Of a DNA stretch of 33,838 bases, positions 2,293-33,540 are shown one piece after another. The stretch's first letter is position 1. Each line of letters opens with the position of its first letter. Location of the stretch: contig CABXTT010000012.1 in the NCBI GenBank assembly GCA_902515155.1, positions 1 through 33,838 of the forward strand, in the 5' to 3' direction. The notes beneath the pieces were generated by a model. That model saw nothing but the letters and a program-made list of their open reading frames with translations. It had not been told where the DNA came from and did not search any database. Position numbers and translations under genes: made by a program. The DNA is from an uncultured SAR86 cluster bacterium. GTDB taxonomy: Bacteria > Pseudomonadota > Gammaproteobacteria > Magnimaribacterales > D2472.

Positions 2293-5200
2293 ATGGCCTT
2301 ATCAAAGAATAAATTTCTTTCTGAAACTTCAATTGTTTCTGGTCTTTTAAAAGATTCAACTTTCCTCGATGATCCGTCCATCTCAAGCAATGCAAAGAAG
2401 ATAATAGATTCTTGCAGAGATCAAAAAAGTGAAAGAACTAAATTAGATGCTTTTTTAAGTGAGTACGGTCTGGATAATCAAGAAGGGGTAGCCCTGATGT
2501 GCATGGCTGAGTCTATTCTTAGAATTCCAGATAGTAAAACAAGAGACTTAATTATTTCTGAAAAGCTTTCAGAAGGCAGATGGATAGATCATTTAAATAA
2601 AGCAGATAGTCTATTTGTAAATGCTTCAACATGGGGCCTGCTTCTTGCCGGCAAGGTAATAACAACGCCATCTGAGTGGTCAAAAAACCCTAATAGCTTT
2701 TTAAATAAAATGATTTCTAAATCTGGAGAGTTCCCTATTAGAAATGCAGTCGTTGCTGCAATGCATATATTAAGCCAAGAATTTGTAATGGGTAGAGATT
2801 TTGATGACATCAAAAAGATAAGAGACATTGAAAATAACATTTACTCATTTGATATGCTCGGAGAGGCTGCTAGAAATGCTGATCAGGCAGATACTTATTA
2901 TCAATCATATAAAAATGCTATTGATGAGGTTGGAAAGATTAATCAATCAAAAAATACATTAAATGGTGTTTCAATAAAGATATCAGCTCTTTTCCCTAAT
3001 TATGAAATGAGAAAATTTAATGAGATTAAGTCAATTCTTGTTCCTAAGTTAATAGAATTAACTGAATATGCTATAGATAAGAATGTTGAAATTACTATTG
3101 ACGCTGAAGAGCAAGATCGACTTGGTGTCAGTCTTGAGATAATAAAAAAAATGGCACTTTCACAAAAGATACAAGACTGGCCAGGATTCGGAATTGCCCT
3201 ACAAGCATATGGCAAGAGAGCACCTTTTGTAATTGATTGGTTGAGTGATCTATTAAAAAGCAGAGGCTCTATGCACTTAAGGTTAGTTAAAGGAGCCTAC
3301 TGGGATTATGAAATAAAACACGCTCAGGTTTTTGGATATGAAAATTATTCAGTCTTCACTAAAAAATCTGTTACTGATCTTTCTTATTTGTCTTGTGCAA
3401 AAAAAATCTTTGAAATAAATTCTATCTATCCAAAATTTGCCACACATAATGCTCATACTATCTCTGCCATACATCATTTGGGTGGCGATAGAGATTATGA
3501 GTTTCAAAGACTTTTTGGAATGGGAGAGTTGTTGTATAAATGTGCAGATAACGTTCTCAATCATCAAAAGAAAACATCCATATATGCTCCAATAGGAAAA
3601 TATAAAGATCTTCTGCCCTATCTTGTAAGAAGATTGCTTGAAAACGGAGCTAATAGTTCCTTCATTAATAGATTACTTGATCCTAAAACAGATTCTAATT
3701 GGTTATCTAGTAGCCCCCACCTTAAAATAGCAGATGAGAGCAAAGATATTCCTTTGCCTAATAAAATTTATAACGATAGAGAGAATTCAAAAGGAATGGA
3801 TATTTCTGAAAGGAAAAACTTAGAAGAAATTAAAACTAAGATTAATAAATATAAAGGTTCTTTACAGAATGTTTCATCTATTTATAAAGGAAGAAATGAT
3901 AATGATTTATCAAAGAATAAAATTTTTTCTTTAGGTGATGCATCTGAAATAGGCACTAGCGTATTTGATAATCTTCAAGAAATAGAAAATTGTCTTAATG
4001 CTAATCATACAAATGATTGGGCAAATATGTTGCCAGAAGAAAGAGGAGCAATATTAACTAGTATTTCTAATGATCTTGAAAATGAACCATATGAGTTAAT
4101 TTATTACTTGATGCATGAAGCTGGTAAAACTATACAAAATGCAATTGATGAAATTAGAGAGGCAATAGATTTTTTAAGATACTACTCTAAGGAAATAATT
4201 GATCTCACAAAAAAAGATAATACTTTAGAGGGTCCAACTGGAGAAATAAATATCCTATCTTACTCAAGCAAAGGTCATTTCCTATGCATTAGTCCATGGA
4301 ATTTCCCTGTTGCAATTTTGATTGGGCAAATAAGTGCAGCTCTTGCATGTGGCAACAGAGTAACCATTAAGCCATCTGAGCATACTTCGATACTGGGCTA
4401 TCTGATTGTTCAAAAGTTTCATAAGCATGGTGTTCCAATTGACGCACTTGAGTTGATTCTTGGTGATGGCATTTATGGTGATATGCTCTCGAAAATAAAA
4501 ACAGTAAAAGGTGTTGCGTTCACGGGATCTCTAGAAACTGCAAAAAAAATTCAAACAAATCTAAATAATAGTCATAAAGAAATAATTCCATTAATTGCAG
4601 AAACAGGTGGAATAAATGTAATGATTGTTGATTCTAGTGCGCTACTAGAGCAAGCTACTGATGATATTATAAGATCTGCTTTTGATAGCTCTGGTCAAAG
4701 GTGTTCAGCCTTGAGGTTACTTTGTATTCAAGATGAGATATATAATGATTTATTAAAAATGCTTAATGGAAGCATGCGTGAACTCAAAATTGGTAATCCA
4801 GAGGACCTTGATACTGATATGGGGCCGATAATTAATAAAGAGTCATTTAAAAAATTATCTAGCCATATTGAGTTCTTTAAAGAGAGTGGAATACCAGTTC
4901 ATCAGTCAACTGATCAAAAATTCTCAAATCATATCCCGCCTACTATTATTGAAATTGATAAATTGTCTGATTTAAAAAATGAGCAGTTTGGTCCAATACT
5001 ACATATTTTAAAATTTAAATCTGACGAGGTTGATGAGCTTATAAGGGAGGTGAACGATAGTGGCTTTGGTTTAACAATGGGAATTCATACCAGAATCGAA
5101 TCTAGAGCAGATATGTTCAGTGAAAAATGCAACATTGGCAATATTTACATTAATAGAGATATGGTTGGAGCCGTTGTTGGCTCTCAGCCGTTTGGTGGTC

Positions 5201-18080: not shown

Positions 18081-18980
18081 ATGGAAATAACTGACAATCT
18101 TAATCAAGATATTATTGATGCTCCTGAATGGTTTAAAAAGGCTATTTCAGAAAAATCAACAGACGGAAATATTGAAAGTCCTCATGGAAATATTTCCTAT
18201 ACGCGGTGGGATGCGAACGAAAAAAACGATAGTCTCATAATTTTTATTCATGGAACGGGTGCTCATAAGAATTGGTGGGATCCAATTGCTCCTCAGTTTA
18301 AAGATGTTGCTAATGTTATTGCCGTTGATCTTCCTGGAATGGGAAATTCAGCTTTTAGAGATGAATATAGTATTAAAGATTTTGGTAATTGTATTATTTC
18401 TGTTATTGAAAAAGAAAATTCAAAAAGACAATTCAATAAAATTTCTATAATTGGACATTCTCTTGGTGGACAAGTTGCTGCTTATGTAGCTTCTGAAAGA
18501 AAAGAGTTGATACAAGAATTAATAATGATCGATACTTTTATAAGACCGCCTGACTATAATCCGGATGATCATAAAGGAGGTCCTCTTCGTAAAATTAAAT
18601 ATTACGACGATAAACTAACTATTTTGAATAGGTTCAGGCTAATGCCTAGTCAAGAATGTAGTAATGACTGGTTTTTAAGATACATAGCTGAATATTCTAT
18701 AAAGCAAACATCAGAAGGTTGGCGATGGAGATTTGATGATGCAATGTTTAATAGCCTTGAAAGATTGTTTGGATATAAATTTTCTTTCAAATGTCCTGCT
18801 TTATTTATTCATGGAGAAAAGAGCTTGCTTATGTCTGGTAATATTCTTACAAACATAAAGGAGACTTATGCAGATGTTATGGACTTTATTGAAGTTCCTG
18901 ATGCTGCTCACCACGTCCCTTTGGACAAACCGCTAGAGATTGTTGATATAATCAAGGAAAGATTATTTAACGGGGGTTAA
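18081..18980 (+). CDS. Alpha/beta hydrolase
   Basis: FIHGTGAHKNWW oxyanion region, VDLPGMGNS, nucleophile elbow GHSLGG, AAHHVPLDKP catalytic His. Confidence 0.92.
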   Translation: MEITDNLNQDIIDAPEWFKKAISEKSTDGNIESPHGNISYTRWDANEKNDSLIIFIHGTGAHKNWWDPIAPQFKDVANVIAVDLPGMGNSAFRDEYSIKDFGNCIISVIEKENSKRQFNKISIIGHSLGGQVAAYVASERKELIQELIMIDTFIRPPDYNPDDHKGGPLRKIKYYDDKLTILNRFRLMPSQECSNDWFLRYIAEYSIKQTSEGWRWRFDDAMFNSLERLFGYKFSFKCPALFIHGEKSLLMSGNILTNIKETYADVMDFIEVPDAAHHVPLDKPLEIVDIIKERLFNGG

Positions 18981-20345
18981 TTGAACTATTTTCTTGGAGC
19001 ATGCTTTCTTATAAGTGGGTTGTTAATTCTCTTCAAGCCTCTTTATGAAAAACTTACAGACTACTTCATTCTAAAACTAAACATTGCAGGGCTTCTTAAT
19101 ATTGCTTTTGGTTCGGCTATTTTCATATATGGAATATCTCAACCAGATTGGAGCGAAAGACTATGGTCAATTATTTTCATTGTATTTGGTGTTATTGCAG
19201 TTATTAAAGGTTTTTTATTATTCTTTTTCCCAAGACGTTCTGAGAAACTTACTCGGTATTTTGTTCAGCACTATTACAAATTTGTTTTACCAATGTCTGC
19301 TGTTTATATTTTTTTATCTTTATTAACAATTTCTACTGACTATATTGGGCCTCAAAATGATATTAATAAGTGCGAATCAGATTCTTATATAAGTGTTTTA
19401 TGTGGATTCTCAAACCCCGAAGACATTGAGATTACTCCAGATAAAAAATTTTTATTTATGTCAGAGTTTGGTGGTATCGGGCCTTATGAGGAACCTTCTG
19501 CTGGATATTTTGCGATGTTAGATCTTGAAAGTAACAAGAAAATAGTTCCAGAAATAGTTATTGGAAATAATGATTGGGGTAATCCAGAGTGTTCTAGAAG
19601 CACTTCAGATAGCTATGGTCCTCATGGTATTGATATGGTTCAAAGAAATGATGATTCTTATCAAATAGGTGTAATAAATCATTTTCCTAAAGAATCTATT
19701 GAAATGTTTGAGCTTTCTAAAAAGGATTCATCTTGGAGTCTCACTTGGCGAGGATGTATCAATGTTCCTGATGAATATTACTTTAACGACATAGGGCTCA
19801 AAAAGGATGGAAGTTTTTATGCTTCTCATATGTATAAGAGAGATATCACTTTTTCTGAGTGGCTTATGGTTACAATTTTTAAAAGTAATTCTGGGCACGT
19901 TGTTCTTTGGGAAGGAGACGAATTTAAGAAAATTCCTAATTCAGATGGGAGTGGTCCTAATGGAATAACTTTAGATGAAGTAAAAAACTTACTTTATATA
20001 AGTTACAACCAAGGAGATCAGATAGTTATCTTTGATCTGTCTGAACATATTAAAGTTAAAAGTTACTTTGTTCAATCACCAGATAATATTCATCTTGAAA
20101 GCAACTCTGCATGGATAACATCACTAGATTTTCAGCCAAATGATATTGGTGATTGTGATAAAAGAATTAGTTGCTCTCTTCCCTTTTCAGTTCATGAGCT
20201 GGATAGAAATTCATTGGAGTTAAAAAATAAATACTCATTTAGTAAAACAGTATTTGGTCTTCCAACAGTTGCAGTGCCTGTAAATGAAAAAATTTATATG
20301 GGTTCTTTTCATTCAGATCGAATAGGCTATTTTATAAAAGAATAA
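18981..20345 (+). CDS. Membrane-anchored paraoxonase/SMP-30-like beta-propeller protein (about 4 N-terminal TM helices plus PON-like domain), TTG start
   Basis: Hydrophobic segments about aa 1-20, 33-52, 61-83, 100-117. PON-like motifs NPEDIEI, YGPHGID, VINHF, FNDIGLKKDGSFYASH, GPNGITLDE..LLYIS, SPDNIHLES..AWIT. Start directly abuts the previous stop with GGGGG upstream. Confidence 0.8.
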   Translation: MNYFLGACFLISGLLILFKPLYEKLTDYFILKLNIAGLLNIAFGSAIFIYGISQPDWSERLWSIIFIVFGVIAVIKGFLLFFFPRRSEKLTRYFVQHYYKFVLPMSAVYIFLSLLTISTDYIGPQNDINKCESDSYISVLCGFSNPEDIEITPDKKFLFMSEFGGIGPYEEPSAGYFAMLDLESNKKIVPEIVIGNNDWGNPECSRSTSDSYGPHGIDMVQRNDDSYQIGVINHFPKESIEMFELSKKDSSWSLTWRGCINVPDEYYFNDIGLKKDGSFYASHMYKRDITFSEWLMVTIFKSNSGHVVLWEGDEFKKIPNSDGSGPNGITLDEVKNLLYISYNQGDQIVIFDLSEHIKVKSYFVQSPDNIHLESNSAWITSLDFQPNDIGDCDKRISCSLPFSVHELDRNSLELKNKYSFSKTVFGLPTVAVPVNEKIYMGSFHSDRIGYFIKE

Positions 20346-20349
20346 ATCT

Positions 20350-21180
20350 ATGGCTCTAAAATTTAATTTTGAAAGCTTAGATAATAAGCTACCCAAAAGA
20401 GATATTAATTCACATAAAGGCAATAACGGAAGAGTTTTGATTGTTGCTGGATCTGAAGGTATGGGTGGAGCAGGAATTCTTGCCTCTGAGGCAAGTCTTT
20501 TTTCTGGCTCAGGCTTGGTCAGCTTGTTTACACATAAATCAAATGTAAGTGCTTCTCTTGAACGTAATCCTGAAATAATGGTACTTGGCATTGATGACTG
20601 TATAGAATATTCAAATAACTTAGACGTTTTATTGATTGGTCCGGGGCTTGGAAGCGATAAATGGTCAAAACTTATGTCAAAGTATCTTGATCAAGTTAAT
20701 AAAAATATTTGCTTAGTTGTTGATGCAGGAGGTCTTAGTTTTTTAAAATCTACTCCTTTAGTTTTAGAATGTAAAAGTACAATTTTGACACCTCATCCAG
20801 GAGAAGCAGCCAACTTATTAGATACAACAGTAGAAGCTATTCAAGGAGATAGAGAAAATTCTGCAAAAAAAATAGCAGAAAAGTATGGGGTATCAGCTGT
20901 TATTTTAAAAGGGCATAAAACAGTAGTATTTTTAAGTGGCACTGATAGGACTTTCGTGAGTGATATTGGAGGTCCAGAGCTAGCTTCTGCTGGCACAGGA
21001 GATGTTTTAGCTGGCATTCTCAGTGCCCTTCTTGCTCAAAATATGAATCTTGAAGATGCTTGTTTATTAGCTGTTGCAGTTCATTCTAAAGCTGGTATAA
21101 ATTTCAAAGAGGATATTGGAGAAATTGGTTTAAACGCTTCGGCTTTAATTCCATTAATTAGGAAGTTACTTAATCAATGA
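20350..21180 (+). CDS. nnrD: ADP/ATP-dependent NAD(P)H-hydrate dehydratase domain (stand-alone, no epimerase domain)
   Basis: RDINSHKGNNGRVLIVAGSEGMGGAGILA; LLIGPGLG; LTPHPGEAANLL; GTGDVLAGILSALLAQ. Confidence 0.92.
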   Translation: MALKFNFESLDNKLPKRDINSHKGNNGRVLIVAGSEGMGGAGILASEASLFSGSGLVSLFTHKSNVSASLERNPEIMVLGIDDCIEYSNNLDVLLIGPGLGSDKWSKLMSKYLDQVNKNICLVVDAGGLSFLKSTPLVLECKSTILTPHPGEAANLLDTTVEAIQGDRENSAKKIAEKYGVSAVILKGHKTVVFLSGTDRTFVSDIGGPELASAGTGDVLAGILSALLAQNMNLEDACLLAVAVHSKAGINFKEDIGEIGLNASALIPLIRKLLNQ

Positions 21181-31251: not shown

Positions 31252-33540
31252 ATGACCAAATATTTTAAAATAGTTTCTCTTTTCGTAGTGCTTCATCTGC
31301 ATGCAGAGTCGATAATAATAGATGGTGACCTTTCTGAGCCTGAATGGGAAAAAGCCATAGTCATTGATAGGTTTTATGAAGTTTCTCCATATACTCTTAA
31401 GGAAACTGATACATCTGAAAGAACAAAGGCATTAATCCTTTCTAATAAAGACGGTATTTATATCGGTTTTAAAAATTTTCAAGATAAAGGTTCCATGCTA
31501 TCGAGAAAGTCAATGCGTGACGAAATGACTTCAATAAGCGAAAAAAATTCAATTAATATAGATTTTGATGGTGATGGCTCTAAGGCATATATTATTGCTG
31601 TTTCTCTAGCTAATTCCTTATTTGATGCTATTAAAGTTCAATCAGGAGGATTTAAAACTGATTGGGATGGTGACTGGGTAGCAAAAGCAAAAGAATATGA
31701 GAATTATTGGATTTCAGAATTTTACCTCCCATGGGACATGGTCTTAATGAACCAACCAGAAGGGAACAAAAGAAAGATAAGATACTCAGCGCTAAGATAT
31801 ATTGCTAAAGATCAATCCTGGTTAAGTAGTGCAGGAACAATGGCAATGCGTGCAGCTTATTTTGAAGAACTAGATACATTAGAAATCGATAATTACACAA
31901 AATCAAGATTCGATTTTTTTCCATACGTATCTTCTAATATCAACTCAGTAACTAAGATAGAAGATAATAAAGTGGGAGCTGAGTTTTTTTATAATACTGG
32001 TAAAGGTCAACAGGCTAATTTAGCAGTGAATCCAGACTTTGGTCAGGCTGAAAGTGATGATGTTGTTATAAATTTCTCTGCACAAGAAACCTTTTATTCA
32101 GAAAAAAGAGCTTTCTTCACAGAAAACCAATCCTTGTTCAATATAAGCAATTATGAAAGATATTCTGTTATCAATACTAGAAGAATTGGATCGGCTCCGG
32201 GATATAATTGCTCTTCTGAAGAAAATGAATCTAATTGTAATGAATCCAAGAAAAATTATTCAGATATAGATTTTGCATTGCGGCTAACGCAGAAAAAAAA
32301 TGATAACGAAGTAGGATTCTTTGTTGCACAAGAAAAAGATGAAGCTTATTCAATAGGCAGAGATTATTTTGCATTAAGGGCAAGAACTAAAGTAAACGAT
32401 AAAACAATTGGCTATATGATCACTCAAGTCATAGATGATTTTAATAGCGCCACAAGTACTGTAAATGTTTTTGATTATATTCAAGTTAAATCTGATAAAT
32501 TAAAACTCTATACAGATCTTCTTGTATCAGAAAAGGAAAATCAATCTGGGCTTGGATTTAGAACACAGTTTGTTTATCTACCAACTAAGTTCACTAAGAC
32601 ATCTGGCAGTATTCTTTATTTTGAGGATGATTTTAAATTAAATGATTTTGGTTATCTGCAAAGAAATGACTGGGTTCATATAGGTTTTGGTGCCGATGTA
32701 AAGAAAATAGATTTTGATGATTCATCATCTATCAAACAACTTGAAAGTGGTATAGATATAAATTATGACGCTGATACTAATGGGAATTCAAATCCAATAA
32801 GAATTGACCAACGAAATGAAATTACTTTTAAAAATACATCTGCATTTAAATTTGATTTTGGGTTCCGGTCATCAGGTAAAAACACAACGATAACAAGAAA
32901 AGATGAGATCTATTCATTTGTAAAAGTTAAAAATAGAATCAGTGTCACTGCAGACTATGAGGCGATAAATTACAAATTTTGGACTTACGACTGGAGGGTT
33001 AGCTTTGAAGATGGAGATAAATACTCTACATGGAACTCAAATGGTTATAAAAAGAAGTTCTTCAAGATTGCGGGTTCTATTTATCCAAATGATTTCTTAA
33101 AAATAAACACTCAATTTAGAGTAAGAAAAGAAAATGAATGGTTGAATTGGATTGATGGCAACAACTTAGCAACTTATGATCTACAACAAAAAACTATTTC
33201 TATAGATTTAAATTGGTTTAAAGATAACAAACATGAAATTAGAATAAAAAGTCAATTTGTAGCTGTAGAAGCAGATAATCCAAGAAGCCTCATATCAGAC
33301 TTCAATGGTTATTTAAAACAAGGTACTGCTGATGTTAAACCCTTTACTAAAGGAGTTGCCTCGTTCCAGCTAAGATATAAATATGAGATTGCTCCCTTAT
33401 CTAATCTGTATATAGTTTATTCAAGAGGCGGAGACGACTATGATGATGAAATTGATAGAAAAACATCAGCAATCTTTAGAAACCCTTGGGAAAACCCAAT
33501 TGACGAAATATTTTCTATAAAATTTAGGCTCAGATATTAA
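31252..33540 (+). CDS. DUF5916-like outer-membrane protein with N-terminal CBM9-like domain
   Basis: Signal peptide; IIIDGDLSEPEWEKAIVIDRFYEVSP; DGDGSKAYIIAVSLANSLFDAIK; LAVNPDFGQAESDDVVINFSAQETFYSEKRAFFTENQSLF; alternating amphipathic C-terminal strands ending in FRLRY. Confidence 0.85.
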   Translation: MTKYFKIVSLFVVLHLHAESIIIDGDLSEPEWEKAIVIDRFYEVSPYTLKETDTSERTKALILSNKDGIYIGFKNFQDKGSMLSRKSMRDEMTSISEKNSINIDFDGDGSKAYIIAVSLANSLFDAIKVQSGGFKTDWDGDWVAKAKEYENYWISEFYLPWDMVLMNQPEGNKRKIRYSALRYIAKDQSWLSSAGTMAMRAAYFEELDTLEIDNYTKSRFDFFPYVSSNINSVTKIEDNKVGAEFFYNTGKGQQANLAVNPDFGQAESDDVVINFSAQETFYSEKRAFFTENQSLFNISNYERYSVINTRRIGSAPGYNCSSEENESNCNESKKNYSDIDFALRLTQKKNDNEVGFFVAQEKDEAYSIGRDYFALRARTKVNDKTIGYMITQVIDDFNSATSTVNVFDYIQVKSDKLKLYTDLLVSEKENQSGLGFRTQFVYLPTKFTKTSGSILYFEDDFKLNDFGYLQRNDWVHIGFGADVKKIDFDDSSSIKQLESGIDINYDADTNGNSNPIRIDQRNEITFKNTSAFKFDFGFRSSGKNTTITRKDEIYSFVKVKNRISVTADYEAINYKFWTYDWRVSFEDGDKYSTWNSNGYKKKFFKIAGSIYPNDFLKINTQFRVRKENEWLNWIDGNNLATYDLQQKTISIDLNWFKDNKHEIRIKSQFVAVEADNPRSLISDFNGYLKQGTADVKPFTKGVASFQLRYKYEIAPLSNLYIVYSRGGDDYDDEIDRKTSAIFRNPWENPIDEIFSIKFRLRY

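Follow-up and report, generated by a model that had tools for sequence, protein, structure and literature searches.

A divergent paraoxonase-like propeller fused to a four-helix membrane domain in SAR86 bacteria, a putative membrane-tethered calcium hydrolase

The window analyzed here, i.e., the whole stretch of 33,838 nucleotides from an uncultured SAR86 cluster bacterium (contig CABXTT010000012.1), contains a gene in which a membrane domain is joined to a paraoxonase (PON)-like propeller, and its features are listed in Table 1. The open reading frame, its strand and its coordinates were reproduced as given in a preliminary description of this DNA. The TTG start codon lies directly 3' of the TAA of the upstream alpha/beta-hydrolase ORF. 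This position is an ATG (MNYF/MNYY) in 77 aligned relatives, the TTG of the window being the only one among them, and because of this shared position we consider that the start is correct and that the transmembrane (TM) region is no miscall.

Table 1. Features of the PON-like gene and the gene upstream of it.
Feature	Coordinates	Strand	Basis
Whole gene, fusion of TM domain and PON-like propeller, 454 aa, TTG start	18981..20345	+	ORF and alignment of relatives
Upstream alpha/beta hydrolase, GHSLGG elbow S127, conserved H277/H278, zero gap to PON gene	18081..18980	+	
Membrane domain aa 1-120, four TM helices, predicted N-out/C-out	18981..19340	+	AlphaFold, hydropathy, positive-inside counts, dN/dS
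PON-like six-bladed propeller, aa 131-454	19371..20342	+	PDB profile, Foldseek, hhalign, Pfam Arylesterase
E147-D148, aligned with PON1 E53 (catalytic Ca) and D54 (structural Ca)	19419..19424	+	HMM alignment, A1
H215, aligned with PON1 H115, first His of dyad	19623..19625	+	HMM alignment, A1, 38-sequence set
H234, aligned with PON1 H134, second His of dyad	19680..19682	+	HMM alignment, A1
N269-D270, aligned with PON1 N168 (catalytic Ca) and D169 (structural Ca)	19785..19790	+	HMM alignment, A1
N327, aligned with PON1 N224	19959..19961	+	HMM alignment, A1
D368-N369, aligned with PON1 D269-N270	20082..20087	+	HMM alignment, A1

Of the 116 loci in the window's family that have the alpha/beta hydrolase as upstream neighbor, 112 show a spacing of -20 to +11 nt between the hydrolase and the PON ORF; the four exceptions were the copies of a genus with split genes (g10) and one broken copy. 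The gene is placed after a vWA/AAA and ABC-2 transporter cluster in two other families (f2 and f3), overlaps a MaoC-dehydratase gene, itself after an acyl-CoA ligase gene, in a third (f4), and adjoins TonB-dependent receptor genes in some Porticoccaceae; the neighbor names vWA, AAA, QueF and ABC-2 were assigned by eye from the sequences. Since the neighborhoods differ between families, the context yields no single pathway. The next gene of the window, at 20350-21180, encodes the dehydratase half alone (NnrD, 276 aa). At the NnrD place, several SAR86 genera have copies of 488-510 aa, which are probably full NnrE-NnrD proteins; the genome of the window, at 75% completeness, gave no YjeF_N (NnrE) domain, and NnrE may have been lost from it. 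In two relatives (L005 and L007), NnrD is absent altogether from its place between the PON gene and tsaE. Farther downstream, at 31252-33540, a 762-aa ORF was judged by eye to be similar to outer-membrane beta-barrels, with an N-terminal carbohydrate-binding-like region.

The preliminary description had noted an N-terminal region of roughly 120 aa with about four hydrophobic helices. In agreement, a Kyte-Doolittle scan of aa 1-120 detected four hydrophobic segments, and the AlphaFold model placed TM-type helices at aa 2-15, 33-52, 61-82 and 98-118 and short loop helices at aa 19-30 and 84-96, with a pLDDT of 93.5 for this part. The arrangement of TM domain and propeller had not been recognized there as a named family, and the protein had no match in NCBIfam, no Pfam model was above its cut-off in the TM part, and the fold search with the TM domain in the PDB gave no significant match (best E 0.71). 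An origin from a tandem hairpin of the DUF2065 type was also considered and rejected, as hhalign of the two halves gave a probability of 0.3% and Pfam DUF2065 an E of 0.5. The mean number of Lys+Arg was 2.9 in loop 1 and 2.8 in loop 3, against 0.7 in loop 2 and 1.1 in the linker, and therefore the positive-inside count predicts an N-out/C-out topology with a periplasmic propeller. Location of the propeller on the periplasmic side of the inner membrane is also suggested by the orthologues outside the fused clade, which bear lipobox signal sequences (called by a simple motif scan, not by SignalP) or one N-terminal hydrophobic helix, and by six invariant cysteines that fit disulfides outside the cytoplasm. 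The TM part is under purifying selection, with dN/dS of 0.12-0.26 in 14 close pairs, compared with 0.08-0.13 for the propeller; not all of these pairs are independent, as some were drawn from a single record or from near-identical ones. In more distant relatives, the identity was 29-47% for the TM part and 55-70% for the propeller.

Named relatives assign the genome to the SAR86 cluster. Of the 107 genomes in the window's family 96 carry the gene, as do 136 of the 203 in the order, mostly incomplete assemblies; outside the order it is rare, with eight matched genomes in a class sample of 369 and two more in the phylum sample. A search of genome contigs with the single protein returned no relative; these were found with the alignment as query. 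Neither viral contigs nor PHROGs contained a relative, the viral fold library gave generic propellers only, and plasmids gave, among the matches listed, only matches at about 20-23% identity. The fused form was observed in eight genera of the window's family (g1-g4 and g6-g9), in f3 (g15 and g16), and in Porticoccaceae/SAR92/HTCC2207-type genomes (L115-L119, L125, L127, L128 and L148); one of the latter genomes, labelled Flavobacteriaceae, is probably a mislabelled bin. The unfused orthologues, with the lipobox or single-helix N-termini described above, belong to g5, g10, f2, f4, g18 of f3 and class-level outgroups. A maximum-likelihood tree of 62 propellers grouped 34 of 35 fused rows in one branch (100/97), and the remaining one (g7) was in a sister clade with g5 and the split-gene genus g10. 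The tree requires two changes of fusion state; gain and loss are not distinguished, and the outgroup branches are long. As a separate observation, the unfused PONs L130, L131, L134 and L135, from genomes that carry the labels Woeseiaceae, Pseudomonadales, Gammaproteobacteria and OM182, fall within the SAR86 g5/g10 clade but have other gene neighborhoods, which points either to horizontal transfer or to mislabelled assemblies. Moreover, in one assembly (L049, G044, 3425-4769) the fused gene and its neighbors are broken by frameshifts and stops, from sequencing error or decay.

Two independent genomes of g10 (L039 and L040) encode the 4-TM protein in an ORF of its own between the hydrolase and PON ORFs, at the very place that the TM domain occupies in the fused genes. 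This ORF is under constraint, with a dN/dS of about 0.10, though at a dS near saturation, and the PON protein of this genus has its own lipobox. Because the 4-TM protein is thus kept where tethering no longer needs it, the domain might be a functional partner and not a mere anchor, e.g., presenting membrane-dissolved lactones to the propeller, an idea that we put forward tentatively and hold to be rather unlikely. If true, a two-part membrane lactonase system that has had no name so far would be common to SAR86 and SAR92.

Next, the propeller was compared with known structures using a profile built from alignment A1, which contains 33 relatives spread over four families of the order. PON1 took the first eight places among the PDB sequences (best E 4.7e-14), and DFPase (2gvu) appeared with an E of 0.007. 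The AlphaFold model (pLDDT 93.3, pTM 0.89) was submitted to Foldseek, and the ten best matches were again all PON1, with E from 2e-16 to 7e-15 and TM-scores of 0.72-0.77 by target length; strictosidine synthase (E 6e-12) and DFPase (E 1.6e-9) were lower matches. The suggestion in the preliminary description that the propeller matches PON1 and is not a generic SMP-30 repeat was, then, borne out, as the domain is closer to PON1 than to SMP-30/DFPase both by profile (5e-14 vs 0.007) and by fold (2e-16 vs 1.6e-9). Alignment by hhalign to three canonical bacterial PONs (L165, L166 and L167, retrieved with PF01731) gave a probability of 98.9 over profile aa 126-454. The Pfam Arylesterase model (PF01731, cut-off 21.3) scored 22.5 bits (E 1.3e-4) with the propeller alone and 18.9 bits (E 0.0018) with the full-length protein, and a single-sequence phmmer search with the window protein found no chain in the PDB. 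Six cysteines are invariant (C131, C141, C204, C259, C392 and C398), and there is no counterpart of the closing disulfide C42-C353 of PON1, with no Cys near the C-terminus. Because it has six cysteines of its own and does not keep Cys near both ends, the propeller is best read from its sequence as a divergent PON-like branch and not as a canonical PON.

The functional residues had been matched by eye to PON1. All these pairs, and the spacing of 19 residues between the two histidines, were recovered in a HMMER alignment to the PON1 chains 4q1u and 1v04, with the numbering counted from printed chain positions, and one correspondence was added to them, i.e., D148 with PON1 D54 (Table 1). The nine PON1-equivalent positions were all invariant in A1 (n = 33, four families); with nine sites among the 28 invariant ones of 324 propeller columns, the hypergeometric p is about 7e-11, a value that takes no account of phylogeny or of the conservation that active sites show in any case. 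In a second alignment, from named genomes (n = 38), eight of the nine were invariant and H215 was replaced once by Gln. This SAR92-type copy (L115:4001-5395) retains every Ca ligand. In the model, E147, H215, N269 and N327 each occupy position one or two of a strand, H234 and D368-N369 are directly at a strand edge, and the motif residues lie in successive parts of the propeller. Taken with the alignment, these strand positions suggest that the motif residues would converge on one metal site, as in the central tunnel. PON1 F222 aligned with G325, and therefore the specificity should differ from that of PON1.

Three other explanations were weighed against these data. The TM segment could result from a wrongly called start or be a spurious in-frame extension, the true protein being a soluble or lipid-anchored propeller, and both the TTG of the window and the absence of the TM part from some orthologues would fit this. 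However, the ATG at the identical position in the 77 relatives, the purifying selection on aa 1-120 and the pLDDT of this part are against it, and a survey of homologues found the same fusion in several SAR86 genera and in Porticoccaceae. We give this explanation almost no credence and consider, as the preliminary description proposed, that the fusion is real, being widespread in relatives and kept under selection.

The propeller could also be a generic SMP-30/gluconolactonase-type (SGL) one, belonging to an unrelated sugar-lactone or other hydrolase, with a likeness to PON1 that is only at the superfamily level. Pfam SGL (PF08450) matches 22 of the 33 A1 members and Arylesterase, whose model spans just 86 positions, only nine; nonetheless, the full-length window protein itself is under the SGL cut-off (16.6 bits, E 0.0064, cut-off 26.3), the whole-chain profile favors PON1 by many orders of magnitude, as the fold search does, and both histidines of the dyad stay in register, making this explanation improbable. 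Propellers often act as scaffolds, and loss of catalysis from a PON-like fold now used for periplasmic binding or scaffolding would agree with the change of pocket positions such as that of PON1 F222 and with the Gln found once at H215. Yet all Ca ligands and both histidines are invariant in A1, and the low propeller dN/dS in close pairs also argues against it; we regard such a loss as similarly improbable. Among the observations counted against the PON-like reading are also the phmmer null, the full-length Arylesterase score below the cut-off, the missing C42-C353 disulfide, the change from F222 to G325, and the varied neighborhoods. That reading is favored because PON1 was the top PDB match by profile and by fold, the nine functional positions are invariant in the 33 orthologues, the gene is widely retained in small genomes, and its f4 copy overlaps the MaoC-dehydratase gene that follows the acyl-CoA ligase gene.

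Collectively, both sequence and model make it likely that this protein is a divergent PON-like Ca hydrolase, tethered to the inner membrane and facing the periplasm, that acts on lipophilic lactones or esters. In PON1, the catalytic Ca stabilizes the oxyanion and the His dyad activates water, and mutation of the dyad lowers or abolishes lactonase and arylesterase activity (PMC7766523). All side-chain participants of this mechanism are present in the window protein. By analogy, the four-TM domain would hold the hydrolase on the periplasmic face of the inner membrane, the catalytic Ca2+ bound by E147, N269, N327, D368 and N369 would polarize the carbonyl of the lactone or ester, the H215-H234 dyad would activate water, and the lactone ring would open to give a hydroxy acid, with a second Ca2+ (D148 and D270) holding the propeller. 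The anchor would set the active site where lipophilic lactones and esters partition, and ring-shaped fatty esters (lactones) are probably opened at the outer face of the inner membrane. We infer this substrate class from the PON family: since lactone hydrolysis is common to all mammalian PONs (PMC9937041) and the enzyme appears to sit at the membrane, lipophilic lactones are our best guess, and quenching of acyl-homoserine lactones is one possible option that these data do not single out. Beta-oxidation, which dominates the metabolism of SAR86, could take up the products; such a feed is plausible because this pathway is central to SAR86 and takes a large share of its small genome (PMC11582366).

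In the surface ocean, SAR86 ranks among the most abundant groups of bacteria (PMC11582366). We found no paper joining SAR86 and paraoxonase within a limited literature collection. Almost every genome of the window's family retains the enzyme, and NCBIfam has no name for it. Should it prove to be a membrane-tethered lactonase, it would point to a substrate class for SAR86 cells, lactones or aryl esters, and offer a divergent bacterial PON branch for studying how PON enzymes use membranes, with natural swaps of the anchor: the 4-TM fusion, a separate 4-TM gene, a single helix, and a lipid anchor.

Compared with mammalian PON1 (PDB 1v04, 3sre and 4q1u), the window protein shares the six-bladed propeller, the side-chain ligands of both Ca sites, the spaced His dyad, and the association with membrane or lipid via the N-terminus. 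It differs in having about 19% identity over the aligned model, in its cysteines, and in its four TM helices, in place of which PON1 has a retained signal peptide. The canonical bacterial PONs have the same motifs; unlike the window protein, they show a single N-terminal hydrophobic helix, keep both the N- and C-terminal cysteines, and one of them (L165) finds PON1 by single-sequence phmmer at 1e-25. The bacterial homoserine lactonases published by Bar-Rogovsky in 2013 are reportedly canonical bacterial PONs. SMP-30/gluconolactonase and DFPase belong to the same superfamily of six-bladed Ca propellers but had far weaker profile and fold scores. The Cu/Zn-SOD–beta-propeller lactonase of Deinococcus (PMC12362111; PDB 9m58 and 9m59) is another natural fusion of a propeller lactonase, with SOD as its partner domain and a distant propeller that appeared at Foldseek rank 47-48.
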